The notes beneath the pieces were generated by a model that worked only from the letters and a program-made list of their open reading frames with translations, ran no database searches and was not told the DNA's origin. Shown here in pieces: positions 7,680 to 33,677 of a DNA stretch of 35,754 nt. Each line of letters begins with the position of its first letter. Position 1 is the stretch's first letter. The DNA lies in assembly GCA_022750125.1 (NCBI GenBank), contig JAKIWH010000003.1, forward strand, positions 5,655 to 41,408, given 5' to 3'. Origin of the DNA: Thermoplasmata archaeon. Its GTDB lineage: Archaea > Thermoplasmatota > Thermoplasmata > Lutacidiplasmatales > UBA184. A program made the position numbers and the translations under genes.

Positions 7680-10600
7680 ATGGATGCTCCCAACTCGGCC
7701 GATACGCGAGAACCCAGCCCGCCGGTCGAACCTCGGGTCCTCGCGTTCGGCCGTCAGCTCCTCGCGCTAGCCCGACGGGCGGCCCGGAGAGCCGGCGGTT
7801 GGCTACAGACCCGCGAAGGTCGCGTCTTTCTCGGGTTCGCCGCGGTCGCGACGTTCATCACCCTGGTGAACTTCCGGGGACTCTTCACGGTACACTTCAT
7901 CGATAACTCCTGGCCGCAGGACCCGAGCGGCCAGCTCCGCTCTCTCGTCTACGCCTGGGGACCCGACCGGTTGGGCTACCTCAACCTACTCGGGCCGATC
8001 GCGATACCTAGCACCACCTTCGCAGCGGGGTTACAGCTGCTAGGAGCGCCGTCCGGAGTTCAGGAGATCCTGCTCCTGGTTCTCCTCCTGACGGTGGCCC
8101 TCTACTTCACTTACCGGCTGCTGGCTCGGTATGTTCTTCGGCAGGTCGAGCCGGAGCTTCGACAGCTCCTCGCCGTTGTCGGCGCGCTTCTCCTCGTGAC
8201 CAGCTTCTACGTTCAAACCGTCTACTGGTGGGACTTCCTGCCGGATGGATTCCTCCTTCTTGCGGCGGGGTCGGTCCTCCTCTACTACGCGACAGCAGCC
8301 CTTTCCGACGTGCTTGGTCAGCATCCCCAGCCGCGGGGCCGGCTCGTACTGCTGGCCGTCGCTTCGACCCTTGCGTTTAGCGTGAACATTCCGTTCAACC
8401 TCTCGCTCCTCTTTCTCGTATTCACCCTCCCGGCCCTCGCGGTGATCGCGGCTGGGCGCGCGAAATTCAGGGTCGGCCCGTGGCTCCGGTTCGAGGTTCT
8501 GCTCGCGGCTCTCGTCGCTCTCACCTCGCTCTGGTGGCTCCTTCCCTCTGCCGAGTTCGCCACCATCGCGCCGGCGTACGTCACGACCCAGTCGGTCGCC
8601 ATCGACAGCCATGCGATCTTCGTAAGCAGTACGAGCGGTATCGACCTCGTAGGCCTCCTCGAAGGACAGCTCGGCTACCCGCTCTACAACGCGGGCCACT
8701 TCGGGCTCACTTCGGCGATCCACGCCGACCTCGGCGTTCCCCTCTCCGTCCTCTTCCTGGGTGTGCTCGCGGGTGGCCTCCTGCTCTGGAAACGTCGCGA
8801 GCACCTTGCGCTCACGCTCGCGACGGGACTCATGCTCTTCCTTGCGCTCTTCGTCACCGGGGTGAACTCGCCGTTCTACCCCGTAGTCTTCGGCTTCCTG
8901 TTCCAGTCGCCGCTCCTCCTCACGTCGCTCCGGACGCCGTTCGTGGCGTTCGGGCTCGCCTTCGAGGAGTTTTGGGTCTGCGCGATGTGTCTCGGTGCGA
9001 GTTCCTGCTACGGATGGCTGCGCGGTCAACTTGATCGGCCCGTCGGCGAAGTCGCGGCGTCGCCGCCGACACACCGCTCGATCCGCGCGCTCCGGTCCCG
9101 GGCGCCACGTCTTCTCGGTCCAGTGCTGATCGGCCTCCTACTGCTTGTTCCGGCCGCAACGCTCGCTCCGGGCGCCTGGGCGGGAGACGCCGTTCCCGTT
9201 GCGCCGTACCAGGCCCGCATGGAGGTGGCCCCGTACGAGGCCTCGGTTGCCTCCTTCCTTCGCGGGCACCTCGACGGTCGAGTAGCCATGCTGTACCCTG
9301 GGGGGTTCCTCGAGCAGAATTGGACCCACGGGTACGACGGCTACGACGTGCTTCCTTCCCTGCTCCCCGGGGAGCTCCTGATCGACAACTACCGGGAGGG
9401 GTTTGTGGCCACCAACAACTCCCTGCTCACTCTCGCGTACTCGACCCTCGACAACGGCAATCCTCGTTCGGCCGGATTCGGCACTCTCCTCGCCCGGCTG
9501 GGCGTCGCCTACCTCGTCGTTGAGGGGGACGTCGGAGGAAACTTCCCGTTCGGACAGAGCACGCCTCCGAACTACGCGGCGCTGCTCGGGTCGTTGAACG
9601 CCTCGGTGAACCTGAGCCTCGCGGCGACCTTTGGCCCCGACTACGTCTACGGCGTCGCCTCCCCGCGGGGACTTGTCTCCCTCGTCGACTCGACGGTCTC
9701 CGAAGCGGGGCTCGTCCAGGCCGAGGTCCAGCCGAGCCTGGACCTCACCCGAGCCTACTTCAACGCAACACGAATCGTGACCACCTCGGTTCCGTTTCCG
9801 CCGGTCGCCGCCCGCTGGCAGAACGGTATCAACTTCACGGCGGCTCCCGGGGACAAGATTCGGATCGCCGCTTCGGACGCAGAGCAGGCTCCGCCGCTGC
9901 CGGGTCCGATCACCCTCGTGAACGGCTACCCGCTCGACCTGAATGTTTCCGCCGGCGACACGCTCCTACTCAACTTCTCGACGAACGCGGCTACGGCGAT
10001 CTCCGTTTCCCTGATCGTCGCTCCCACGCTCACGGGACTTCCGCTTGGATCGGTGTACGCGGCCACGTATTCGGTGGGCGCCCCTGCCGACAACCTCGGA
10101 ACCGGCGACGCGGCGCTCGTACCGGCCTACGGGGCCAACCACTTCGTGAGTCCGGGCCATTTCACGCTGCTCTCCGACGACCTCGCCGCGACGCTACGTG
10201 GAGTGTCGAACCCCACCATCCACTTCCTCGCGATCACCCTCTGGCCCGTGAATCCGGACGGCTCCGGAAACCGCGGTGCTCCGGTTGCCGCTTGGCCCGG
10301 GAGCCAATCCGTCCAGATCTCGAGCCTCGAGCTCGGAACCAATCTGTTCCTCGGGCCGGCCCTGCTCCCTGCAGACCCGTTCGCGGGGGGATGGGCTTCC
10401 GGGACGAGTCCGGTCGACCTCCTTCCCGCAGTTACCGTCGGGCTTCGGACGAACAGCTCCCTAGCTCCGCCGCACACGCTCTTTGAGACCGGGGTGAACG
10501 GTTCGGTTGGGATGGTCTTCGGTCCCTCCGCCAAGTCGAACTGGTCCTCGCACCCGCTCGGTCCCCCCTTCGCTCCTTACGGGCCGCCGACGTACTTCTC

Positions 10601-11501
10601 CGCCAATTCCCTCGGCGTGAACGTTAGCCGCACGCCGTTTCTCACGCTCAACCTTACGAGTGCTCGGGACACAGCATTCGCGGTCGCGGTCGTGCCGGAC
10701 AGGAATCTCTCCTCCCTCTCCTCCAGCAGCTTCGCTCGCGACACCTTCTTCCTCGGCGGGGTAGGGAGCACGGCGGGGGAAGGAGATCCGCTCCTGACCC
10801 CGACCTACGGGACGCGCCACTACGACTCGAACGGGAGCTGGCTCCGCTTCACCGAGGTGCTCTCAACGCTGCTCCCAGGCGCGAGCCCGTTCGTAAACCA
10901 CCTCCTCTTCGAGCTGTTCTACGTTTCCCCCAACGGGAGCGGCGTCCGCGGCCTATCACCGGAAGCCTGGCCCGGCACCCAGACGCTGCTCCTCGGTTCC
11001 GCGGAAGCCAGTCCATACCTCGTCGACGGTAGCCCGCCGACCGGACCGCTTCCTTCGCTCATGGGGATCCCGTTCGCGGCAGCCGTACCGGGAGGACTTC
11101 CGCTCGACGCCGCGAGTCTCGCAGGGCCTCCAGCGAGCTTCGATCGGAACGTGAGCCTCACCTACAGCTATCCCTCGCCGACGAACTTCAAGGTCCGCCT
11201 CTCGACGACCGACCCGAGCTCCCCGAAGCTGGAGGTGCTGGTCGAGCTCGCGCAGACGTACTTCGGCGGCTGGCAACTGGAGAACCTGCACGGGATCGTT
11301 TCGTGGAGCCAGGTGCGCCTCGACGGCGCCCTCGATGGTTTCCTGGTCGAGCTCGCGCCGGGTGCCGTGACGGCGAGCTTCGACATCACCTTCCTTCCGC
11401 AGACGCTCTACACGGTCTCGCTCGTGCTGGGACTGCTCGTCCCCGCCTCGATCGGCGTGTACCAGTGGCTCGTCCCCCTCGTCCGGAGGCGGCTCCGTTG
11501 A
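7680..11501 (+). CDS. Large multi-TM protein with extracellular beta-rich domains and a C-terminal TM, candidate GT-C-type glycosyltransferase
   Basis: 1273 aa; about a dozen N-terminal hydrophobic helices, an acidic extracytoplasmic loop (FIDNSWPQDPSG), a long Asn-X-Ser/Thr-rich ectodomain with internal duplication, and a C-terminal TM (TLYTVSLVLGLLVPASIGVYQWLVPLVRRRLR). Sits in a GT cluster. Confidence 0.7.
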   Translation: MDAPNSADTREPSPPVEPRVLAFGRQLLALARRAARRAGGWLQTREGRVFLGFAAVATFITLVNFRGLFTVHFIDNSWPQDPSGQLRSLVYAWGPDRLGYLNLLGPIAIPSTTFAAGLQLLGAPSGVQEILLLVLLLTVALYFTYRLLARYVLRQVEPELRQLLAVVGALLLVTSFYVQTVYWWDFLPDGFLLLAAGSVLLYYATAALSDVLGQHPQPRGRLVLLAVASTLAFSVNIPFNLSLLFLVFTLPALAVIAAGRAKFRVGPWLRFEVLLAALVALTSLWWLLPSAEFATIAPAYVTTQSVAIDSHAIFVSSTSGIDLVGLLEGQLGYPLYNAGHFGLTSAIHADLGVPLSVLFLGVLAGGLLLWKRREHLALTLATGLMLFLALFVTGVNSPFYPVVFGFLFQSPLLLTSLRTPFVAFGLAFEEFWVCAMCLGASSCYGWLRGQLDRPVGEVAASPPTHRSIRALRSRAPRLLGPVLIGLLLLVPAATLAPGAWAGDAVPVAPYQARMEVAPYEASVASFLRGHLDGRVAMLYPGGFLEQNWTHGYDGYDVLPSLLPGELLIDNYREGFVATNNSLLTLAYSTLDNGNPRSAGFGTLLARLGVAYLVVEGDVGGNFPFGQSTPPNYAALLGSLNASVNLSLAATFGPDYVYGVASPRGLVSLVDSTVSEAGLVQAEVQPSLDLTRAYFNATRIVTTSVPFPPVAARWQNGINFTAAPGDKIRIAASDAEQAPPLPGPITLVNGYPLDLNVSAGDTLLLNFSTNAATAISVSLIVAPTLTGLPLGSVYAATYSVGAPADNLGTGDAALVPAYGANHFVSPGHFTLLSDDLAATLRGVSNPTIHFLAITLWPVNPDGSGNRGAPVAAWPGSQSVQISSLELGTNLFLGPALLPADPFAGGWASGTSPVDLLPAVTVGLRTNSSLAPPHTLFETGVNGSVGMVFGPSAKSNWSSHPLGPPFAPYGPPTYFSANSLGVNVSRTPFLTLNLTSARDTAFAVAVVPDRNLSSLSSSSFARDTFFLGGVGSTAGEGDPLLTPTYGTRHYDSNGSWLRFTEVLSTLLPGASPFVNHLLFELFYVSPNGSGVRGLSPEAWPGTQTLLLGSAEASPYLVDGSPPTGPLPSLMGIPFAAAVPGGLPLDAASLAGPPASFDRNVSLTYSYPSPTNFKVRLSTTDPSSPKLEVLVELAQTYFGGWQLENLHGIVSWSQVRLDGALDGFLVELAPGAVTASFDITFLPQTLYTVSLVLGLLVPASIGVYQWLVPLVRRRLR

Positions 11502-15554: not shown

Positions 15555-17015
15555 CTAGGAGTACCCCCACGCAGCAAGATGTTCCTCAATCGGGGTGATC
15601 GACTTAGGTTCACGCTGGAGGAAAGGAAGCTCGGAGGGTCCCTCTCGCATCGGAGCCGGGAACAATCGGGCGGCCAACTGGACCGCCTCTTCCCCCACCA
15701 CGATCTCGCGCGGGGGCCGGTCGTGGTCTCCGTTGCCGCTCCAGCGGCCGAGGGTGCCGGTGTCCAGATCGAGTACCGCCTTTCCCTCCTGATCGTAGCG
15801 GGCAACCAGGCGGTGGTTCCACGAGGCAGACATGAACCTCATCGCAAATACGGAGTTCACCTCGTGCGCAGGACTGCCTTCGCAGAACACGGCGGGAGCT
15901 TCTCGCGAGGTCCTCCCGTTCGGGGAGATTCGCTCGCCAGATCCCTCGAACGGTGGTTCGCCCACGGCGAGTGCCAAGGACCAGTCCGAGATCGAGCAGA
16001 GGCTCGTCCAACGGTCCGAGCGTCCCCGCAGCCGCATCGTGTCGGGCAAGCGAGCGAGGAGGGGGACGCGTGCCACAGCGTCGCTCACACCTCCGGAATG
16101 AAACACGTTCCCCTCCTCCCCGAACTGCTGCCCATGGTCGGAGGTGACGAACACTGCGCTCTCTCCGAGGAGGCCGGTCCGCTCCAGCGCACCGAGTATC
16201 AAGCCCACCTTCCGGTCGGCCCGGGCGATCTCGAGGACATAGGCCTGCTCGAGCCGCTCGAGCGCGGCGCGCCGCGAGCGCTCGGAGGTCTGAAGGAGCA
16301 GACTCGCAGGAAGCAGCCCCAGCAGTTCGGAAGGGCGGAGTGGGGGAAGTCCGGGGCCGCGTAGGGTGTAGGGTTCGTGGGCATCGACGCAGTTGAGCAG
16401 GAGGTGAAACGGGCGGTCGCGAGGGCGGCCCGAGATCCACCGGCACGCTTCTTCCACCAGGGTCGGGGCGGTCAATCGTTCCTTGAGCTGCAACCGTTCC
16501 CGGTGGACGAGGAAACCTACGGGCAGCGCCAACGCCGCCCTTCTTCCTTTGAAGAGCCGCGCAAGCGCGTCCATTACGCTCGCTTTCGCCGTGCCGGGGA
16601 TTGGGAGGCCCGTGGCAAGACCGCTCACCTCTCCGACCGAGTTGCCGCTCGTCCGGCAGTACTCGTACCCCTCGGCGAGGCCAGAGTCGCTACTCAGGTG
16701 GGCCTGTTCGGTGAAGAGTGCCGTGGAGAATCCGGACGCGCGGAGCCGCTCGGCGAGGAGCGGCACCGTCGCCCGGGAGCGTCGCTGGACGCTCCTTACC
16801 CTGTGCGAGCTCGGATACAGGCCCGAGAGGAGCGACATGTGCGAAGGGAGGGTCCAATTGGCAGCGGCGACGGCGTGCGTGAACTCCATCCCCTCCGTAC
16901 GGAGGCGGTCGAGCGCGGGGGTGGACGGGGGGCTCACCCCGTCCCTGCTCTCGAGGTTCTTCTGGCGGACGCAATCGAGTACGATGACGACGATGTTGGG
17001 TGTACCCGAGCGCAT
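15555..17015 (-). CDS. Sulfatase-like/alkaline phosphatase superfamily hydrolase or phosphotransferase
   Basis: MRSGTPNIVVIVLDCVRQKNL (metal Asp), ANWTLPSHMSLLSGLYPSSH (nucleophile region with Thr), VFVTSDHGQQFGEEG (metal DH). Confidence 0.88.
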   Translation of the reverse strand: MRSGTPNIVVIVLDCVRQKNLESRDGVSPPSTPALDRLRTEGMEFTHAVAAANWTLPSHMSLLSGLYPSSHRVRSVQRRSRATVPLLAERLRASGFSTALFTEQAHLSSDSGLAEGYEYCRTSGNSVGEVSGLATGLPIPGTAKASVMDALARLFKGRRAALALPVGFLVHRERLQLKERLTAPTLVEEACRWISGRPRDRPFHLLLNCVDAHEPYTLRGPGLPPLRPSELLGLLPASLLLQTSERSRRAALERLEQAYVLEIARADRKVGLILGALERTGLLGESAVFVTSDHGQQFGEEGNVFHSGGVSDAVARVPLLARLPDTMRLRGRSDRWTSLCSISDWSLALAVGEPPFEGSGERISPNGRTSREAPAVFCEGSPAHEVNSVFAMRFMSASWNHRLVARYDQEGKAVLDLDTGTLGRWSGNGDHDRPPREIVVGEEAVQLAARLFPAPMREGPSELPFLQREPKSITPIEEHLAAWGYS

Positions 17016-17236
17016 TGCCCTCCATCGGTATGGATGCCGGCTCCCCCCATATGAACCGGAGCCCCTGCTCGGAGCGGAGCGAAGGGAGGTGAGGGCAGGA
17101 AGACCCTCCGCCCCGCCTTTCGGCCCCTTTGCCGCAGATTCGGCGGGTTTCTCACCCTCGGAACTCGACGAACAGGATTATCTCCCCCACCGTCCAAATC
17201 TCACACAGGCCAACCAAGTTTTGGGGGTGTACACAG

Positions 17237-20200
17237 GTGCTGGCGGGAGCCCGCTCCGCCAAGCCACTTGCGAGCTGGGCCGGGTCGCTCGCAATGCTTG
17301 CGCTGCTAAGTGCGTCGCTGTGGGGATCCGGGGGGACCCCCGTTGGGATCCCTCTGGCCAGTCCGATTGCCGCCGGATTGAGCGGTGGACACGCCCAAGC
17401 GTCGATCCCAAGCCCTCCGCACCTCCCGTCGCCGGCGAGTCGTTCCAGCCCCTCCCAGAGTGTAACCCCGCTTCTCCCACGCCCGTTCAGCGGGCAGGGA
17501 TCGATCCCGTCGGTGAACGCGTCGCTCGTTCTGTTCAACGGGACCGTCGTTGCAGGTCTCGGGCGGGCCGTGCCCAACGATGCGCCAAGCGCCATCGCGA
17601 CGGACCCATCCGCGTCCCGGCTCTATGTGGCGGACCAGAACTCGAACCTCGTCAGCGTGGTGAATCTCACGAGCGGCAAGGTGCTCGGGACCCTCGCCTT
17701 CCCGAGCGGGGGGCCGCTCTCCTCGCTTGCTGTCGACAGTCGGAGCAACGAGCTGTACGGGATCGACCCCACGAAGGGGTACCTGGATGCGGTAAACCTG
17801 AGCGGAAACCATTCCACCGCGGCGCAGATCGCGCTGAGCTCTCCGGAAGAGCTCCTCTACGATCCCGCCTCGGGGGAGGTGTTCGTCACTTCGGGGTCCC
17901 CGAACCAGCTCCTCGTGTACAACGGGACCAACCACACGCTACTGAGTTCGTTCTCCACGACCGGAACTCCGGCCGGCATCGCCCTCGATGGAACTGGCCC
18001 GTTCGCGTACGTGGCAGCCTCTTCCTCGAATTCGGTCGACCGAATCGACCTACTGAACGGCTCCGTTCAGAGCCTCCCGGTCGGCACGGATCCGACCGGG
18101 GTTGCGGTCTCGACCGCCAACCACACGCTCTTCGTCACGAACGCGGGCTCCGACAACGTAAGCCTCCTGAATCTGACCACGCTCGCCTCCCGCACGGTCG
18201 CGGTGGGAACCTCGCCGGAGGCCGTACTCTACGACAGCGCGACCGAAAGGGTGTATGTCGCCAATTCGGGAGGGGACAACGTGAGCGTGTTCAACTCCAC
18301 CAGCACCGCTCGGCCCGCCTCGCTCGCCGTCGGTGACTTCCCGGACTACCTGGCCGTGGACCTCCCTCGCGCCGAGCTCTACGTCTCCGCAAGCTCACGG
18401 TACAACATTACCGGCGTGAACACCACGAGCGGAAACGTGTCGCGGGAGATCTCCGTCGGAAACGTTCCCACGTTGGTCAGTTGGAACCCCGGCAGCAGCA
18501 CACTGCTGGTGAGCGACGCCTTGTCGCGATGGGGCTACGAAGTGAACGGAAGCAGCCTCTCGGCGCACGCAGTGCCGATAGCGGGCACCCACGACCTGTC
18601 GAGCGCCGTCGCCCCCTCGATCGGAAAACTGTTCCTCGCGTCCGCCGTCGACAACCGAATCTGGTCTCTCTTTCTTTCGAACGGTAGCGTAGCCACCTCC
18701 GCAGCGCTGCCGTACGGGCCTGTCTCGCTCGCCTACGACCCGGGGACGGAACGGCTGTTCGCCGCGGACCCGACCGCCTCGAGCGTCGCCGTGTTCGATG
18801 CCGGCACCCTGACCGAGCTGGGCGCGATCCAGTTCCCTACCCCGGCGCTGAACGTCTCCCTCTCGGGGATGGCGGTCGACCCTTCCACCGAGCAGCTCTA
18901 CGTGGGCGAGCACGCCGCGGGGAGAGTTGCGGTCCTCAACACCACCACCCTTCGTTTCGTAACGAACCTGAGCATCGCGAGCCCTTCCGCCCTCACCTTT
19001 GTCTTCACCTCGAACCGCGTTGCGGTCGCGTCGGGCACCAACCTCGTGTTCGTGAACGCGTTGAACCGGGCAACCCTCGCGAGCGTCCGACTCGGCTCCC
19101 CGGCGGGCTCCGTGAGCCTTTCGCCTTCGACCGGTGATCTCTACGTCGCCTCCACGAGCAACGACTCGATCGAGATCGTGCAACCGAACCCCGCCGTCGC
19201 GCGAGGAAACATCTCCCTCGCCGCGGTGGCCGGAACTCCGGGGCTCGACGCCGCGAGCGGCACGCTCTGGATACCCGAACCCTCGCTCGGTGTGATCGCC
19301 GGAGCGCCTCTCGGGGGGAAGAACCCGCTCTGGATCCGAAACCTGAGCGCGACGGTCTCGTCGATTCCCGTCGACCTCTCGATGAATTTCACGGCGGACG
19401 TGGCGGGTGGGGTCGCGCCGTACCGGTACCTGTACATCGGCCTCCCGTCCGGGTGCGCGCCGCTCAACCGCTCGCGGTTGCCCTGCTCCCCCGACCTCGC
19501 GGGCAACTACACCGTCCGGCTCGAGGTGAAGGACGCGACCGGAAACTCGACCAACGCGACCGTCTCGCTGAACGTGAGCGCCCTCCCGACCGTGCTCATC
19601 CAGGGGTTCTCGGCGGTGCCTCCGCGGCTCGACCTGGGAGCATCGACCGTTCTGCACGTCCTCGCGTCGACCAACTTGGGCACGATCAACTTCGCGTACA
19701 CCGGGCTCCCGCCAGGATGCAGCTCTTCCAACACTCCGACTCTACCGTGCACCCCCACCACGACCGGCAATTTCACCCCCCACGTCACGGTCACGGGCAT
19801 CCTCGGGATCCAGGCGAACACGTCGCTCCTCCTCTCCGTCTATCCGTATCCCGGGATCGCCTCCTTCCAATCGACGCTCACCCACCTTGACGCCGGCGAG
19901 ACCACCGTACTGTCGGTCGTTCCCACGGGGGGCGACGGACCTTTTGCCCTCGCCTACACGGGCCTTCCCTCGGGCTGCGTTACCTCGAACTCGACGAGCC
20001 TGAGCTGCCGACCCTCTGGTGCGGGGAACTTCACGGTCCAGGTGACCGCCTCGGATTCCGCGGGCGGGCAGGCGAACGCCTCTCTGCAGATGGTCGTGAC
20101 TCCCGCGACGGTGATCGGCTCCTTCGAGGCTAGCCCCGGCGCGGCCGACGTGGGCGAAACGGTCGCCTTCACTGCGCAGGCGGGCGGGGGAGCCGGATTC

Positions 20201-21277
20201 CTTGCGTTCAGCTACGCGGGGTTGCCGCCGGGATGTGTGGGGGCGAATCTGAGCGCGATCACCTGCGTCCCCTCCCAGCCCGGCAACTTTACAGTCACGC
20301 TCTCCGTGAAGGACTCCCTCGCTCCTGCCGTCCAAAGATCGCTTGAGCTCCCGGTCGCCGCTCGGCCCCAGGTTTCGAGCTTCGCCGCCTCCCCGAGGTT
20401 CGTCGAGACGGGCGGTGTGGTGACCCTGAACGTCCTCACGACGGGCGGGACAGGGCTCCTGGTGTACAGCTACGTGGGACTGCCGGCTAGCTGTGGGGTG
20501 CCCAGCACACCCTCCGTAGTGTGCCAGGTGACGCAGGCGGGAACGTTCACCGCGAGCGTAACGGTGGTCGACGGCGCGAAAGTCTCGACCACCGCCTCTA
20601 CGAGCTTCGAAGTGCTCCTCCCTGGGACCGTCCATCCGACCATCCAGTCGTTCGTGGCCACTTCCACGAGGATCACCGTCGGCCAAGCGACGATCCTGAC
20701 CGTTCAAGTTTCGAACACCTCGGCGTGGTTTGGGTACGCGTATTCGGGACTTCCCACCGGGTGCGGCTCGTTGAACGAGAGCGTGCTCTCCTGCACCCCC
20801 ACGGGACCGGGATCGTTCACCGTCACGGTCCTCGTTTCGAGCCCGTACGGTGGCTCGGCGCGGCAAGCCCTCAATCTGACGATTCTCCCCTCGGCCTCCC
20901 TGGGAGGAACTTCGGCTTCCCGCCCGTCGGGACCTCCCCTCTTCTCCCTCGTCCTGGCAGGGGCGCTCGGGCTGTTTGCGGTCCTTCTTGCCATGCTCTA
21001 CCGACAGCAGCGCCGTCGTACGGCTCGCGAGGTTCGCGCGGCCCCGCCTCCCCCTCCCTTCGCGGCCTTGGCGGAGCCCGCCCCCTCCCCTCCGCCCCTC
21101 GAGGAGCCGGCAGCTGTGGTCGAGGAGCCTACTCCCGTGGCGACGGAACCTGCCGAGGCAGCCAACATCGACCCGCTGGCCGAGCTCCAGCTGGAGCTGG
21201 ATCTCCTCACGAAGGAGCTGAGCGACCGCGAGCAGCAGGGGGAGTCGGCTCTCGACCGTCAGAACGAGAACGAGTAA
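17237..21277 (+). CDS. Giant surface protein: signal sequence, YVTN-type beta-propeller, six Ig/PKD-like CX9C modules, TM, cytoplasmic acidic coiled-coil tail
   Basis: Track ORF 17129..21277. Probable GTG start at 17237 gives an N-terminal hydrophobic signal. Repeats such as RLYVADQNSNLVSVVNLTSGKVLGTLAF and RVYVANSGGDNVSVFNSTS are YVTN propeller blades. TM is PPLFSLVLAGALGLFAVLLAMLYRQQRRR, followed by a Pro/Glu linker and LAELQLELDLLTKELSDREQQ. Confidence 0.88.
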   Translation: MLAGARSAKPLASWAGSLAMLALLSASLWGSGGTPVGIPLASPIAAGLSGGHAQASIPSPPHLPSPASRSSPSQSVTPLLPRPFSGQGSIPSVNASLVLFNGTVVAGLGRAVPNDAPSAIATDPSASRLYVADQNSNLVSVVNLTSGKVLGTLAFPSGGPLSSLAVDSRSNELYGIDPTKGYLDAVNLSGNHSTAAQIALSSPEELLYDPASGEVFVTSGSPNQLLVYNGTNHTLLSSFSTTGTPAGIALDGTGPFAYVAASSSNSVDRIDLLNGSVQSLPVGTDPTGVAVSTANHTLFVTNAGSDNVSLLNLTTLASRTVAVGTSPEAVLYDSATERVYVANSGGDNVSVFNSTSTARPASLAVGDFPDYLAVDLPRAELYVSASSRYNITGVNTTSGNVSREISVGNVPTLVSWNPGSSTLLVSDALSRWGYEVNGSSLSAHAVPIAGTHDLSSAVAPSIGKLFLASAVDNRIWSLFLSNGSVATSAALPYGPVSLAYDPGTERLFAADPTASSVAVFDAGTLTELGAIQFPTPALNVSLSGMAVDPSTEQLYVGEHAAGRVAVLNTTTLRFVTNLSIASPSALTFVFTSNRVAVASGTNLVFVNALNRATLASVRLGSPAGSVSLSPSTGDLYVASTSNDSIEIVQPNPAVARGNISLAAVAGTPGLDAASGTLWIPEPSLGVIAGAPLGGKNPLWIRNLSATVSSIPVDLSMNFTADVAGGVAPYRYLYIGLPSGCAPLNRSRLPCSPDLAGNYTVRLEVKDATGNSTNATVSLNVSALPTVLIQGFSAVPPRLDLGASTVLHVLASTNLGTINFAYTGLPPGCSSSNTPTLPCTPTTTGNFTPHVTVTGILGIQANTSLLLSVYPYPGIASFQSTLTHLDAGETTVLSVVPTGGDGPFALAYTGLPSGCVTSNSTSLSCRPSGAGNFTVQVTASDSAGGQANASLQMVVTPATVIGSFEASPGAADVGETVAFTAQAGGGAGFLAFSYAGLPPGCVGANLSAITCVPSQPGNFTVTLSVKDSLAPAVQRSLELPVAARPQVSSFAASPRFVETGGVVTLNVLTTGGTGLLVYSYVGLPASCGVPSTPSVVCQVTQAGTFTASVTVVDGAKVSTTASTSFEVLLPGTVHPTIQSFVATSTRITVGQATILTVQVSNTSAWFGYAYSGLPTGCGSLNESVLSCTPTGPGSFTVTVLVSSPYGGSARQALNLTILPSASLGGTSASRPSGPPLFSLVLAGALGLFAVLLAMLYRQQRRRTAREVRAAPPPPPFAALAEPAPSPPPLEEPAAVVEEPTPVATEPAEAANIDPLAELQLELDLLTKELSDREQQGESALDRQNENE
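19342..20893 (+). repeat. Six tandem about 85-95 aa Ig/PKD-like modules with consensus Y-x-GLP-x-x-C-x9-C
   Basis: YIGLPSGCAPLNRSRLPC; YTGLPPGCSSSNTPTLPC; YTGLPSGCVTSNSTSLSC; YAGLPPGCVGANLSAITC; YVGLPASCGVPSTPSVVC; YSGLPTGCGSLNESVLSC; each followed by G-x-(F/Y)-T-x-x-(V/L)-x-V. Confidence 0.85.
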
Positions 21278-21390: not shown

Positions 21391-21849
21391 GTGCCCAGCA
21401 TGGTGGTAGATTTTGAGTTCAGGAAGAGCCCGGCGCTTCGACTCGCGACGTTCGCGTGGAAAGGGTCCTGGAACGAGAAGCGGATTCGCTCGGAGTTCGA
21501 GAAGCTGGACCGATGGGCGAAGAAGCGCGGCATCCGCACCGGCAAGTGGGTGTTCATGGAACCGTCCTCGCGACACTGGAAGGTGGGTATCGAGGTCAAA
21601 GGCAAGAGCCGAGGGGAAGGGGCGATCCGCCTGACGACGCTGCCCGCGAGCAAGGTCGCCTGCGTCGTCTACGACCCGGACAAGGTCTCCCCCCGCGTCG
21701 TGTACCACGGTCTCACCGACTGGCTCCGCTGGAGGCGCAAGGAGGGCGACATCAAGGGCGTCGGCGCCTACCGCGAAGTGTACGACGGCAACCCTTGGAC
21801 GAACGCCCGTGCTTGGGCGAACTCCTGTGTCCAGGTCGTAGTCCGTTAG
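21391..21849 (+). CDS. GyrI-like/effector-binding small-molecule-binding domain protein
   Basis: LATFAWKGSWNEKRIRSEFEKLDRWAKKRGIRTGKWVFME...KVGIEVKGKS...IRLTTLPASKVACVVYDPDKVSPRVVYHGLTDWLRW...YREVYDGNP matches the GyrI-like pattern. Confidence 0.72.
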   Translation: MPSMVVDFEFRKSPALRLATFAWKGSWNEKRIRSEFEKLDRWAKKRGIRTGKWVFMEPSSRHWKVGIEVKGKSRGEGAIRLTTLPASKVACVVYDPDKVSPRVVYHGLTDWLRWRRKEGDIKGVGAYREVYDGNPWTNARAWANSCVQVVVR

Positions 21850-22674: not shown

Positions 22675-22695
22675 CCTCGGCCGGTGGGAGTCCTC

Positions 22696-23802
22696 GTGGC
22701 GTCCGACCAGGGGCCGGCCCTCTCGCCGGGCGATGCTCACCTCTCCTCCAGGGAACGGCAGCTCCTCATCGGACTCTACACCGCAATCTTCGCCGTGACG
22801 ATCGCCGGATTCGTGGCGGCGTTCGCGTACCTGCCGCACCAGTTCGCGGGGGGCGTGGCGGGCGGCGGGCTCATCTTTTCCGGTCTCGCCATCACGGCGT
22901 ACGTCCTTGGTCTCCGCCACGGCTTCGACGCGGACCACATCGCGGCCATCGACAACACCACCCGGAAGCTCCTCAACGACGGTCAGCGCCCGCTCACGGT
23001 CGGGACCTGGTTCTCGCTCGGTCACTCGACGATCGTCTGCGGCATGGTCGCCGTGTTCGTAGTGGCGACCGAGACCGCCCGCACCTACTACCACGCGCTC
23101 GCCTCCACCGGGGCGGTCGTCGGCACGCTCGTCTCGGGAACGTTCCTCTTCGTGATCGGGCTCGTGAACGTACTGATCGTGCTCGACGTCTACCGGCTCT
23201 TCAAGGGATTGCGGGACCGGGAGCTCGACCAGAAGGGACTCGACGAACAGATGGAGAGGCGGGGGTTCCTCTACCGCTACTTTTCGGGACTCTTCCGGGT
23301 GGTCCGTCGGCCGCGCGACATCTATCCCATTGGCGTCCTTTTCGGACTCGGGTTCGACACCGCGACCGAGGTGGTGCTCAGCGCCTTCAGCGTGGGGTTC
23401 GCCGTCTCCACGGCCGTACCCTTCTGGGCGGTCATGCTCCTTCCGCTCCTCTTCACGTGCGGGATGGTGCTCTCCGACACGACGGACGGGTTCGCGATGC
23501 GCTACGCCTACGGCTGGGCGTTCCTGAAGCCGATCCGGAAAGTGTACTACAACCTCACCCTCACGGTGATCTCGGTCCTTGTGGCGTTCGCGATCGGTGG
23601 CGTCGAGCTTCTCCAGGTGTTGTCGCAGGAGCTCGGCTGGAGCGGCCCCTTCTGGTCGGTGGTCCAGAACCTCAACTTCGAAACGGTGGGGATCGGGATC
23701 GTGGTCCTCTTCCTGGCCGCCTGGGGGATCGCCATGGCGATCTACCGGTACAAGCGGTACGAGGAGATCGGGTTCGGTCCCGCCCCGGCGACGGGACCGT
23801 GA
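22696..23802 (+). CDS. NiCoT-family nickel/cobalt transporter
   Basis: LGLRHGFDADHIAAIDNTTRKL (HX4DH signature), GTWFSLGHSTIV, LFGLGFDTATEV. Track ORF starts at 22684; GTG at 22696 fits the promoter spacing better. Confidence 0.92.
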   Translation: MASDQGPALSPGDAHLSSRERQLLIGLYTAIFAVTIAGFVAAFAYLPHQFAGGVAGGGLIFSGLAITAYVLGLRHGFDADHIAAIDNTTRKLLNDGQRPLTVGTWFSLGHSTIVCGMVAVFVVATETARTYYHALASTGAVVGTLVSGTFLFVIGLVNVLIVLDVYRLFKGLRDRELDQKGLDEQMERRGFLYRYFSGLFRVVRRPRDIYPIGVLFGLGFDTATEVVLSAFSVGFAVSTAVPFWAVMLLPLLFTCGMVLSDTTDGFAMRYAYGWAFLKPIRKVYYNLTLTVISVLVAFAIGGVELLQVLSQELGWSGPFWSVVQNLNFETVGIGIVVLFLAAWGIAMAIYRYKRYEEIGFGPAPATGP

Positions 23803-26379: not shown

Positions 26380-27195
26380 CTAGAAACGGACGATGCTCCC
26401 CGTACGGAGCGCCTGGCGCTCGAACACTCCCCAGAGTCCCATGGCAAGGCCGAGCGTGATGGCGGTCGACAGGACGAGGGCGCCCCACAACGGCAGGAGC
26501 GTCATGAGGCCCGCGCCCGCGGCGGTGGCACGGATCGCCGAGATACCCCAGGTAAGGGGGAGCAGGTAGCCCAACCACACGAGCGGGAGCGGCAGGAAGC
26601 TCACCGGGAAGTTCGCACCCGAGAGGAGGAGTCCGATGAAGAGGAAGATGTTCCCAAGGATGATCGAGGTGCGCAGGAAAAGGGCGACCCCTCCGAGCAG
26701 GAGGCCGAACCCCACCATCGAGACCGAAAGCAGTCCGACCGAGATCGCGATGGGACCGGTCGACCCGGCCGCGAACGGGACGTGGAACAGGAACGCTGCG
26801 TAGAGCAAGCCCACCGCGAGCGTGGCGACCGAGGCGAGGATGGGGAGGAGTCCCCGACCGAGGTAGAGGGCGGCGCGGTTCGTCGGGGAGACGAGGAGGT
26901 GTTCCATGGTGCCTTGATGCTTCTCCGAGTCGGTCGTCTGGCAGACGCTGAAGATGCTCGAGTAGGTCACCGGGGCGATCGCGTTCCCGAGCACGACGAA
27001 AGCGACCGGCGCCGACGGGTTGCCGGCGAGCTGGGCCACCACCGCGAAGAAGAGCATCTGGGTGAACGGGACGATGAGGACGGTCCCGAGCACGTAATCG
27101 ATCCGCATGAACCCGAGCGTGGTCCGCGGAGCGAACACCGCGTTGGTCCAGAGGACGCGAAGAAGGTTCGGCGTTCTCGTGACGGGGGCGGCCAC
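26380..27195 (-). CDS. ABC-2 type transporter permease
   Basis: Real frame inside ORF 26380..28158, probable GTG start at 27195. Six hydrophobic helices, KHQGTMEHLLVSPTNRAALYLGRGL. Confidence 0.85.
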   Translation of the reverse strand: MAAPVTRTPNLLRVLWTNAVFAPRTTLGFMRIDYVLGTVLIVPFTQMLFFAVVAQLAGNPSAPVAFVVLGNAIAPVTYSSIFSVCQTTDSEKHQGTMEHLLVSPTNRAALYLGRGLLPILASVATLAVGLLYAAFLFHVPFAAGSTGPIAISVGLLSVSMVGFGLLLGGVALFLRTSIILGNIFLFIGLLLSGANFPVSFLPLPLVWLGYLLPLTWGISAIRATAAGAGLMTLLPLWGALVLSTAITLGLAMGLWGVFERQALRTGSIVRF

Positions 27196-27197
27196 GG

Positions 27198-27998
27198 TCA
27201 GTACTCCTGCAGATTGCCGACGGTGAGCACGTGCTGTTCCACGCGGTGGTAGACGGAGCCTGCGGCCGCGAGGTAGACGAGCATCGTCCCGAGGGCCCCG
27301 AGCAGGTCTACCGTGAACCCCCAGCTGAATCCAGTGTAGCCCGGGAGGGCGGCGTAGCGGAGCGCGTCGAGCGCCCAAGTGGGCGGTAGGAGCAGCGCAA
27401 TGGGGCTCGTCCAGAACGGAAGCAGGACGACCGGGAACATCGAACCCGTGATGATGTAGAACCCGAACTCCCCAAAGTTGTTGATGAACCCGGCGTAGCG
27501 GGTGTACACGTAGACCGCGGAGAGGACGAGCCCGACGCTCGCGAGGGTGACGAGGACGAAGGCGAATAGGAGCACGAACTCGAGCGGCGCTCGGAGCGGG
27601 AGCGGGTGGGGGTAGGCGAACGAGACGACCGCGAACACCACGAGGCCGCCAACGAGCCCCGTGACGGCGTTCACCACGATCCGGCCGAACACCACCCAGA
27701 GGTACGAGGTGGGGGTCGAGAGGGTCGGCTCGAGCGTGCCGAGCTCCCGGTCCTGGCCGGTCGCCCAGCCGGCACCGTAGAGCGTCTGGCCCCACATCGA
27801 CATCATCCCGGCGCCGAGGATCGCGTACAGGACGAGCGTCGCGCCCGACCCCCGATACAACTCGAAGGCGGCGAACCCAAAGATCACGGGAGCGATCGTC
27901 GCCGGGATCACCCACTGGGGGTCGGCGAGGAACAGCAGGAGAGAGAGGCGGACGGAGGCGAGGAACGCCCGCGGGCGCGACGGCTCTACCTTCCCCAT
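27198..27998 (-). CDS. ABC-2 type transporter permease
   Basis: 266 aa, GQDRELGTLEPTLSTPTSYLWVVFGRI and several TM helices; adjacent to the ATPase and a second permease. Confidence 0.85.
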   Translation of the reverse strand: MGKVEPSRPRAFLASVRLSLLLFLADPQWVIPATIAPVIFGFAAFELYRGSGATLVLYAILGAGMMSMWGQTLYGAGWATGQDRELGTLEPTLSTPTSYLWVVFGRIVVNAVTGLVGGLVVFAVVSFAYPHPLPLRAPLEFVLLFAFVLVTLASVGLVLSAVYVYTRYAGFINNFGEFGFYIITGSMFPVVLLPFWTSPIALLLPPTWALDALRYAALPGYTGFSWGFTVDLLGALGTMLVYLAAAGSVYHRVEQHVLTVGNLQEY

Positions 27999-28978
27999 CA
28001 GTTCGGTTCCTCTTCGACGAGGTCGAGGTAGATGTCCTCGAGCGCGGTGCGTCGCTCGCGCACCTCGAGTTCGGGGTGGCCCGGGAGCGCTTTCGCGACC
28101 CGGTCGAGTTCGAGCTCGGGACTCCGGACCCGGAGCGTGATGCGCAGGCGCGGGCCAAACTCCTCGGTGACGAGGCGAGAAACGCCCGGCAGCGCCTTCA
28201 CCCGGGCGAGCTCGGCGTCCTCGAACCCGTACCCGTCGATCTCGAACGTCCGGTCCCCGCCCACGAGGTGCCGGAGGCCCGCCACCGTGTCCGAGGCGAC
28301 GATCTTCCCTTTCGAGATAACAGCGATCCGCTGGCAGAGCTCCTCCGCCTCGAACATGTAGTGCGTGGTGAGGAAGATCGTCACGCCTTCGGCGAGCAAC
28401 GCGCGCACGAACTTCCGTGTTTCCCGCGCGCTCTTCGGGTCGAGCCCGATCGTCGGTTCGTCGAGGAAGAGGAGCTCCGGTTGGTGGAGCAAGCCCCGAG
28501 CGAGGTGGAGCTTCTGCTTCATCCCCCGGGAATACTCCTCGACACGTTGATCGCCGGCCGCGCCGAGCCCCACGCGCTCGAGCATGTCCGAGATCCGTCC
28601 CTCGCGCTCCCCGCGAGGGATCCCGTACAGGTCCGCAAAGTACCGGAGGTTCTCTCGACCGCTGACCCGGTAGTAGAGTCCCCGCTCCCCACCCAGAACG
28701 AGTCCGATTCGAGGCCGAAGCCGCTGCGCGTCCCGAACGACGTCGAGCCCGAGTACGCGAGCCGAGCCGGACGTGGGGATGAGCAGGGTGGAGAGGACCT
28801 TCGCGAGCGTAGTCTTACCCGCGCCGTTGGGGCCGAGCAGGCCGAACAGTTCGCCCGGAGCGATCTCGAGGTCCACACCCCGCAGAGCCTCGGTCCGAGT
28901 AACCTCGCTGAAGAGGAAGCCCTTCCGGGAAGAGTACACCCGGGTGAGCTGCCGGACGGAGATGGCGGAGTCGACCAT
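27998..28978 (-). CDS. ABC transporter ATP-binding protein (ABC-2 exporter)
   Basis: Walker A GLLGPNGAGKTTLAKVL; signature EYSRGMKQKLHLARGLLHQPELLFLDEPTIGLDP. Track ORF starts at 29008; ATG at 28978 is preferred. Confidence 0.93.
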   Translation of the reverse strand: MVDSAISVRQLTRVYSSRKGFLFSEVTRTEALRGVDLEIAPGELFGLLGPNGAGKTTLAKVLSTLLIPTSGSARVLGLDVVRDAQRLRPRIGLVLGGERGLYYRVSGRENLRYFADLYGIPRGEREGRISDMLERVGLGAAGDQRVEEYSRGMKQKLHLARGLLHQPELLFLDEPTIGLDPKSARETRKFVRALLAEGVTIFLTTHYMFEAEELCQRIAVISKGKIVASDTVAGLRHLVGGDRTFEIDGYGFEDAELARVKALPGVSRLVTEEFGPRLRITLRVRSPELELDRVAKALPGHPELEVRERRTALEDIYLDLVEEEPN

Positions 28979-29156
28979 GGGAACGAAGCTCGAGGGGGCG
29001 CCGACCATAATCCTTCGCGTGGGGAGGCACTGAAACGGTCGCGCGGGGCATCGCGTGGAGCCTCAACTGGAGGCCCCGGTCCGAACCGTCTCCGGACGAA
29101 TCCTCCGACGGAAAAACCACCTTTTCCGTCGCCCGGAACCGCGCGCGTCGGGGCAC

Positions 29157-31263: not shown

Positions 31264-32625
31264 GTGCCGTTCGAGTTCCGGCTCCCGGATATCGGGGAAG
31301 GGGTCGCCGAAGGGGAGGTCGTGAAGTGGTTCGTCAAGGAAGGCGACACCATCGCCGAGGATGCGCCGCTCGTCTCGGTACTGACCGACAAGGCGAACGT
31401 CGAGATCCCCTCGCCCCGCGCCGGCACGATACGAACGCTCCACGCCAAGGAGGGAGAGAAAGTGAAGGTCGGCGGGCTCCTCGTAACTATCGACACGAAG
31501 GACGGAGATGCTCCCGCAGCCCAAGCACGTCCGCCCGAGGCAACGGAAGCTAGCGCTGCCCCAACCGCCTCCCCCGCTCCCACGCCGCCGGCAAGGCCGA
31601 CCGGGGGCCGGGTGCTCGCAAGCCCGCACGTTCGGAGGCTCGCCTCGGAGAAGGGGATCGATCTTGGTCAGATCACCGGAACGGGACCGCAGGGCCGCAT
31701 TACCGAAGCGGATCTTACCGCGGCCACGAAAGTGCCAGAGGCGGCCGAGGCGAGTGCACCCGCCGACGGCGCTCCGGCGGCCACCGAAGCGGACGCGGCC
31801 GGTTCGGATCCCTCGAACCCACCGCCGATCTCGACCGGCGAGGAAACCGCCGTGGCGGGCGCTCCGGCAAAGTCCCCTGCATCTACTCCCGACGCTCCGC
31901 ACGGGCGCCCACCGGACCCAGAGATCGAGCGGGTGCCCATCCGTGGACTCCGGCGGGTCATCGCGGAGCACATGACCGAGGCAACGCACCGCGCGGCCCA
32001 CTTCACCTACGTCGAGGAGGTCGACGCCACCGAGCTCGTCCGGACTCGGGATCGGATGGCGATGCACCTCGAGGAGAAGGGCGTGAAACTCTCGTACCTT
32101 CCTCTCATCCTGAAGGCGATCGTGGCCGGGCTCCGCGAGCACCCCCGGATGAACGCGACGATGGACGACGAGGCGAACGAGCTCCTCGTCCATCACCGGT
32201 TCAACATGGGGATCGCGACCGCCACCCCCGACGGACTCCTCGTCCCGGTGGTGCGCGACGTCGACCGGAAGAGCGTTGCCGAGCTCGCCCGCGAGATCCA
32301 GCAGCTCTCCGAGCGCGCCCGCGCCGGGAAGCTCGCCCGCGCCGAGCTCACGGGAAGCAGCTTCACGATCACGAGCTTGGGCGCGCTGGGCGGCGTCCTC
32401 GCCACCCCCATCCTCAACTATCCGGAGGTAGCGATCCTGGGGGTCCACCGGATCGTCCGTCGCCCGATCTACCGCGAGGACGGCACGCTCGCTCCCGCGC
32501 ACCTGATGAACCTCTCCGTCTCCCTCGACCACCGGGTGCTCGACGGGATCGAGGGCGCACAGTTCCTCGCCGTCGTGAAACGCCACCTCGAGGACCCGCA
32601 CCTCCTGTTCGCGTACCTGGTATGA
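31264..32625 (+). CDS. Dihydrolipoamide acyltransferase (E2)
   Basis: Lipoyl domain TDKANVEIPSP, Pro/Ala linkers, E3-binding domain ASPHVRRLASEKGIDLGQITGTGPQGRITEADL, catalytic DHRVLDGIEGAQFL. Confidence 0.95.
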   Translation: MPFEFRLPDIGEGVAEGEVVKWFVKEGDTIAEDAPLVSVLTDKANVEIPSPRAGTIRTLHAKEGEKVKVGGLLVTIDTKDGDAPAAQARPPEATEASAAPTASPAPTPPARPTGGRVLASPHVRRLASEKGIDLGQITGTGPQGRITEADLTAATKVPEAAEASAPADGAPAATEADAAGSDPSNPPPISTGEETAVAGAPAKSPASTPDAPHGRPPDPEIERVPIRGLRRVIAEHMTEATHRAAHFTYVEEVDATELVRTRDRMAMHLEEKGVKLSYLPLILKAIVAGLREHPRMNATMDDEANELLVHHRFNMGIATATPDGLLVPVVRDVDRKSVAELAREIQQLSERARAGKLARAELTGSSFTITSLGALGGVLATPILNYPEVAILGVHRIVRRPIYREDGTLAPAHLMNLSVSLDHRVLDGIEGAQFLAVVKRHLEDPHLLFAYLV

Positions 32626-33677
32626 CCGCCGAACCGGTCGCGCTGCCCTACGACCGGCCGGCGCTCGCGCAGGCGCTGGGCGCCGACTACGAGGAACGGC
32701 TCCTCGCGGCCCATCACTGGATGACCCTCGCCCGCGAGCTCGACAGCCGGATGCTCGGCCTCCAGCGGCAGGGACGGATCGGGTTCTACGGCCCCGCGAC
32801 CGGGCAGGAGGCGGTGAGCGTCGCCGCGGGGCTCGCGAGCCGTCCCGAGGATTGGATCATCCCCGGACTGCGCGAGCAGCTCATCGCGCTCGTTCGGGGT
32901 CACTCGCTCGCCCGGTACGTGCACCACCTCTTTGCGAACGACCGCGATCCGGCCCGGGGCCGGCAGATGCCCTGCCATCCCACCGCGCGCGAGGTGAAGT
33001 ACGTCTCGATGTCGAGCGTGGTCGGGACGCAGATCACCCACGCGGTAGGGATCGCCTACGGCCTCAAGCTTCGGAAGGACACGGGGGTGGCGCTCGCCTT
33101 CTTCGGGGACGGGGCCACGAGCGCGAACGATTTCCACGCCGGCCTCAACTTCGCGGCCGTGCTCGGGCTGCCCGTGCTCTTCTGCCTCACGAACAACCAG
33201 TGGGCGATCTCGGTCCCCGTCGAGCGGCAAACGCACGTGAAGGAGCTCGCGATGAAGGGGGGCGCCTACGGCATCCCGAGCCGCCGCGTCGACGGCACCG
33301 ACTTCGTCGCCTGCTACGCAACCTTCGCGGAAGGGCTCGAGGCGGCGCGGGCGAGCCCGGGACCGCTGCTCGCGGAGTTCCTCCTCTACCGCATGACGCC
33401 GCACTCGAGCTCGGACGACCCGAGCCGCTACCAGGCTCCCGACTGGATGGCGCAGGCGCTCGCGCACGACCCCGTCCGCAGGATGGAGGAGCTGCTCACC
33501 CGACTCGGGATCCTTTCCGACGCCGCACGGACCTCGGTGCGCGAAGAGGCCGCGCGGCTCGTGAAGGAGGCCGTGAACGAGGCGGAGTCGGTGGGGACCC
33601 CCACGCCGGAATCGATGCTGACCGATGTGCTCGCGACGGCTCCGTCCCCGGTCGCGCCCCGCTCGGAGCCGGCCTAG
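32622..33677 (+). CDS. 2-oxoacid dehydrogenase E1 alpha subunit, divergent copy 2
   Basis: ATGA overlap with E2; RQGRIGFYGPATGQEAVSVAAGLASRPEDWIIPGLREQL...GDGATSANDFHAGLNFAAVLGLPVLFCLTNNQWAISVPVERQT...HSSSDDPSRYQ. Confidence 0.93.
   Translation: MTAEPVALPYDRPALAQALGADYEERLLAAHHWMTLARELDSRMLGLQRQGRIGFYGPATGQEAVSVAAGLASRPEDWIIPGLREQLIALVRGHSLARYVHHLFANDRDPARGRQMPCHPTAREVKYVSMSSVVGTQITHAVGIAYGLKLRKDTGVALAFFGDGATSANDFHAGLNFAAVLGLPVLFCLTNNQWAISVPVERQTHVKELAMKGGAYGIPSRRVDGTDFVACYATFAEGLEAARASPGPLLAEFLLYRMTPHSSSDDPSRYQAPDWMAQALAHDPVRRMEELLTRLGILSDAARTSVREEAARLVKEAVNEAESVGTPTPESMLTDVLATAPSPVAPRSEPA

Follow-up and report, generated by a model that had tools for sequence, protein, structure and literature searches.

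PKD domains (PF00801 / PF18911) are β-sandwich repeats of 80–90 residues found in extracellular proteins, with a WDFGDG...HxY core. He_PIG domains (PF05345) and the cadherin-like repeats of the S. aureus adhesin SraP (PDB 4m00/4m02/4m03) have a GLPxG turn followed by xxGTPT.xGTyTvtV.atD, and an archaeal surface-layer protein (PDB 1l0q) joins a YVTN propeller to a PKD domain. The protein encoded by ORF 17129..21277 on the + strand of the window (the whole stretch of DNA analysed, 35,754 nucleotides) likewise has a YVTN propeller followed by PKD-type domains, the arrangement of archaeal YVTN-PKD surface proteins, but differs from 1l0q in carrying six Cys-paired beads and a C-terminal transmembrane (TM) helix. 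Taken as a whole, the best explanation of the six repeats, and one we consider very likely, is that they form a stalk, built of Cys-paired beads, in an archaeal surface protein anchored to the membrane.

17129..21277, + strand: whole ORF, 1382 residues counted from TTG; true start uncertain
17483..19306, + strand: N-terminal head of YVTN/YncE-like β-propeller repeats, ~600 residues (TIGR02276 and PDB 1l0q matches)
19307..19570, + strand: module 1, CX9C motif 19433-19486
19571..19834, + strand: module 2, CX9C motif 19697-19750
19829..20092, + strand: module 3, CX9C motif 19955-20008; AlphaFold pLDDT 95.7
20087..20350, + strand: module 4, CX9C motif 20213-20266; folded jointly with module 3
20345..20608, + strand: module 5, CX9C motif 20471-20524; GLPASC variant
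20615..20878, + strand: module 6, CX9C motif 20741-20794
20927..21007, + strand: C-terminal TM helix (residues 1267-1293) with basic residues at its end, from hydropathy
21008..21274, + strand: acidic Pro/Glu-rich C-terminal tail, from sequence

An ATG at residue 56 of the ORF falls within the hydrophobic N-terminal segment. The head matches NCBIfam TIGR02276 (1.9e-16) and, as its best PDB match, 1l0q (2.3e-19); judging from its length, it probably comprises two propellers. The Pro/Glu-rich tail is presumably cytoplasmic, a topology suggested by the basic residues that follow the TM helix. A same-genus orthologue (L132) with 67% identity, NG86 dN/dS values against it of ~0.17 for the propeller and ~0.25 for the modules, and the retention of the 12 module Cys residues together indicate a real gene. 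Twelve of the 13 Cys residues of the protein sit in the six motifs; the orthologue keeps 12/12 of these, and the 13th, N-terminal Cys is an Arg there.

Signature and fold class of the six modules

The exact pattern Y.GLP..C.{9}C occurs six times in the protein (residues 769-786, 857-874, 943-960, 1029-1046, 1115-1132 and 1205-1222) and in none of 20,000 shuffles of its sequence; CX9C alone occurs 6 times, compared with a shuffle mean of 0.11 and a maximum of 3. Six tandem modules with this signature, as reported in an earlier note on this DNA, are therefore confirmed, and the span given there (19342..20893) is close to the module bounds found (~19307..20878). The modules are spaced 86–90 residues apart and share 23–42% pairwise identity. 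This, together with the absence of a DNA-level tandem repeat, suggests old copies with a retained motif. Columns invariant across all six are Y, G, L, P, C, C, G and T. The consensus YxGLPxGC proposed earlier holds for the six only in the form YxGLPxxC, because module 5 reads GLPASC instead of GLPxGC. Strict invariance, including that claimed for the nine-residue spacing, is limited to this protein; over the family the signature is looser, with the spacing found in 326/354 two-Cys modules and, among 320 unique modules with that spacing, Y in 59% or W in 27%, G in 68%, L in 88%, P in 90%, and Gly preceding the first Cys in 95%. We dropped the idea of a hypervariable loop between the Cys residues, as the loop shows conservation at positions 2, 4 and 8 (S, N/D and L).

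Pfam PKD (PF00801) matches four stretches of the whole protein (1.5e-13, 50.9 bits, cut-off 23.5); modules 1 and 3 taken singly score 20.8 and 20.2 bits, under that cut-off. The landmarks GG.GPY.Y.W and aGtYtVtltVtD are shared with PKD domains, but the WDFGDG and HxY core is missing from 6/6 modules, which instead have YxGLPxxC and CxP/CxV (YxGLPxGC...LxCxP). The He_PIG motif GLPxGL...xGTPT occurs in a form in which both its Leu and its Gly are replaced by Cys. Single modules match He_PIG weakly (module 1, E 0.0041, 18.0 bits, under the gathering score of 24). He_PIG and SraP rank with the best matches by sequence profile and by fold. Searched against the PDB, a profile built from the six copies finds SraP, in which the Leu of 'GLPSGL' and the Gly of 'NSIIGTPT' lie opposite or adjoining the two Cys residues.

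AlphaFold models of module 3 (pLDDT 95.7, 141 sequences) and of modules 3-4 together (pLDDT 97.5, pTM 0.81) point to the same class. Foldseek matches the module 3 model to Sas6, SraP, PKD domains and 1l0q, and SraP ranks first for modules 3-4; the PKD domains 6aem, 4l9d and 4jrw align with TM scores of 0.67–0.70 at modest E-values (0.008–0.03). By sequence and model, the modules are assigned to a sub-family of PKD/He_PIG-type Ig-like β-sandwiches, with no new fold. The earlier proposal of an undescribed domain family stands in so far as no model in Pfam or NCBIfam describes the CX9C module, so that the six copies do not merge into a family already defined by it; it does not extend to the fold, given the PKD match above cut-off and the PKD and SraP folds. 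The best reading is of a clade-expanded, Cys-stapled version of a known PKD/He_PIG domain, the version itself being new. A dedicated HMM would improve the annotation of many hypothetical proteins.

Position and pairing of the Cys residues

The AlphaFold model of module 3 puts the first Cys (residue 50) in the loop that follows the third main strand (40-44), and the second (residue 60) closes the strand after that (57-60). From these positions, the predicted bond would fasten a loop onto a strand; the disulfide hairpin envisaged in the earlier note is not supported by the model. Both Cys residues lie outside strands 26-33 and 69-75 and do not occupy the position of the classical Ig B-strand to F-strand disulfide. 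The likely disulfide would thus occupy a site that classical Ig domains do not use.

A census with a Cys-masked profile, covering 453 unique modules drawn from the window plus 80 further stretches, found both Cys residues in 354, neither in 95 and one in 4. Of the four single-Cys modules, two contain a different Cys pair close by, one carries two displaced Cys residues, and one is a truncated match. The Cys-free modules in these genomes mostly belong to another sub-family, GDG-type PKD, and the residues most often found at the two positions in Cys-free PKD modules are Asp and His; the 354/95/4 table therefore reflects few independent events. Since nearly every module has either both residues or neither, a disulfide is the natural interpretation, and each module probably contains an intradomain bond. 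The earlier description of a disulfide-stapled, lineage-specific surface module is thus supported as to evolutionary pairing and strong clade restriction, the bond itself being read from sequence.

Metal sites, too, can contain paired Cys residues at a fixed spacing, and the pair in these modules could in principle bind a metal or cofactor, or form a redox-active site, in place of a structural disulfide. We regard this as very unlikely: each module offers two Cys residues only and no conserved His, conservation around them is of Gly, Pro, Thr and Leu, an extracellular location is predicted for the protein, and the Cys positions are Leu and Gly in Cys-free relatives. Slightly less improbable, but still unlikely, is that the Cys residues link different modules or molecules in a covalent cross-linked lattice. 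A lattice would accord with the many copies per genome, and disulfide links can occur between surface-layer proteins, e.g. the DR_2577 dimers (PMC4419837). Against this, the two Cys residues of a module are separated by 10 positions within a single bead and are retained or lost as a pair, and modules with an odd Cys, which partners located elsewhere would lead one to expect, hardly occur. The least probable reading, to which we give hardly any weight, is that these are ordinary PKD repeats whose Cys residues arose by incidental clade-level drift and have no role; the PKD matches and the concentration in mostly one clade agree with it, but 204 of the 354 copies that keep both Cys residues are <50% identical to one another, and L132 keeps 12/12 with a third of its residues changed. 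An intradomain disulfide remains the preferred reading.

Distribution, VKOR association and proposed origin of the module

The window's genome contains 46–64 profile matches, and in a first draw 24/24 other genomes of the same family (f1) had matches, from 5 to at least 134 each. Four genomes of genus g3 of f1 (G007, G012, G017 and G022; 2.5–3.6 Mb) have at least 134 modules each and 403–697 first-look candidates; in one, 134 of 697 first-look candidates were scored. Across 300 genomes of the class, matches were found in 60/62 members of f1, and strong matches elsewhere were few; a phylum draw at E 1e-12 gave matches in 14 f1 genomes, which were all those listed, and in one other. Among the inspected matches from other families of the class, those at E 1e-4 to 1e-11 were for the most part PKD repeats of the ordinary kind that lack the motif. 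Cys-bearing modules outside f1 were found in f25 (L058, L059, L065 and L070), those of L058, L059 and L065 (genomes G222, G225 and G229) being isolated strong matches; horizontal transfer or MAG contamination could account for them. Cys-free modules were seen in f11.

Further afield, no match was found in plasmids by tblastn, and a DNA pattern search of viral contigs gave two matches, neither of which encodes the module. Among 150 genomes around a Bacillota MAG there was one match, with He_PIG-type modules without Cys, and 149 genomes around a Proteobacteria MAG gave 0 at E 1e-10 in a run without positive control. A contig scan with the whole protein as query returned propeller relatives, AcS1-67 and SubAcS10-22 among the named ones. 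The CX9C module is strongly clade-restricted and rare outside f1, and the earlier claim of lineage specificity is upheld by the HMM search of archaeal genomes.

AcS1-67 and SubAcS10-22, MAGs of the Ca. Lutacidiplasmatales study (PMC9287336), have 28 and 58 module matches, and the match places of SubAcS10-22 mostly coincide with those of an f1 genome (G128); by sequence, f1 is taken to contain Ca. Lutacidiplasmatales MAGs, and the window would accordingly derive from an archaeon of the Lutacidiplasmatales. PKD is unmentioned in the main text of that study, and among the papers searched none linked 'PKD domain' with Thermoplasmatota. The signature can serve as a marker of one archaeal family, in which the module is strongly amplified.

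VKOR was detected in 58/62 f1 genomes compared with 23/238 other members of the class (Fisher 6.5e-38, uncorrected for shared ancestry), and f1 is one clade, so the association does not represent independent events. In some bacteria and archaea, VKOR generates disulfides de novo in proteins that are exported, and the module is thereby tied to a candidate oxidase; aerobic life could be an alternative cause of VKOR presence. The four f1 genomes with modules but without a VKOR match (G006, G011, G199 and G293) are drafts. A DsbA-like protein (PF13462) is found in only 5/25 f1 genomes, so a full oxidative pathway is putative. What gives the module interest beyond the window is how far it has been amplified and how it correlates with VKOR.

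In f11, a family of the same class, the module GLPAGLVSVNTTSISGTPS has Leu and Gly at the Cys positions with the same nine residues between them. Its members (L060, L061, L063, L064 and L074; module match E ~1e-20) resemble the CX9C module in this spacing and adjoin GDG-type PKD repeats, but in GLPAGL...SISGTP modules Leu/Ile/Met and Gly replace the two Cys residues, and the VKOR matches include none of the f11 genomes. As SraP and f11 carry a Leu-type residue and Gly there, the CX9C module is the common GLPxG-type PKD/Ig-like domain with two substitutions. The best explanation of the aligned sequences is a double change to Cys, one of the Leu in a GLPxGL turn and one of the Gly in the xSGTP strand that comes next. 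We tentatively propose, at somewhat less than even odds, that this paired change took place at the base of one archaeal family, jointly with VKOR-based oxidative folding, and was followed by expansion until each genome held copies in the dozens or hundreds; disulfide-locked Ig-like beads with exchangeable propeller and hydrolase heads would then make up a large part of the cell surface in these acid-soil archaea.

Proposed stalk architecture and genomic surroundings

Of 74 complete ORFs that hold at least two modules, 72 have a TM helix after the last one, and Kelch propeller, PNGaseA-like or phosphoesterase regions are found in other module proteins encoded by the window's genome. These observations suggest that the modules are stalks for exchangeable heads. 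One such protein of this genome (L093:2614-5139) joins a PNGaseA-like N-glycanase region to PKD/CX9C modules and a TM helix, and the L118 ORF at 4615 (+) encodes 2940 residues with 26 modules and 42 Cys residues within modules. In the proposed arrangement, an intradomain disulfide would tie the loop that follows the third main strand of each bead to the end of the strand after it; the bond would be expected to form and to stabilise the bead, with oxidation probably taking place outside the cell by a VKOR-type system. Beads in series without flexible linkers would make a rod, whose stiffness we infer, as we do any binding by the head, and the rod would hold the N-terminal β-propeller off the membrane. 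A possible reliance of the acid-soil archaeal envelope on disulfide-stabilised stalks can thereby be put to a direct test.

Near the stalk gene, a sulfatase-like ORF (15555-17015, −) is divergent from it and matches choline-sulfatase/arylsulfatase profiles (best E 3e-21, under curated cut-off). A defence role was considered and dropped, since PADLOC found nothing. Further upstream, a 1273-residue protein (7680-11501, +), for which Pfam and NCBIfam gave no match, has a multi-TM N-terminus and a long, probably extracellular C-terminal part. Just 3' of the stalk gene lies a GyrI-like small-molecule-binding protein (21391-21849, +; 26.5 bits, cut-off 26), and the window also encodes a NicO high-affinity nickel transporter (22684-23802, +; E 7e-89), a DrrA/DrrB-like ABC exporter pair (26380-29008, −) and, side by side, pyruvate/2-oxoacid dehydrogenase E2 and E1-alpha (31264-33677, +).
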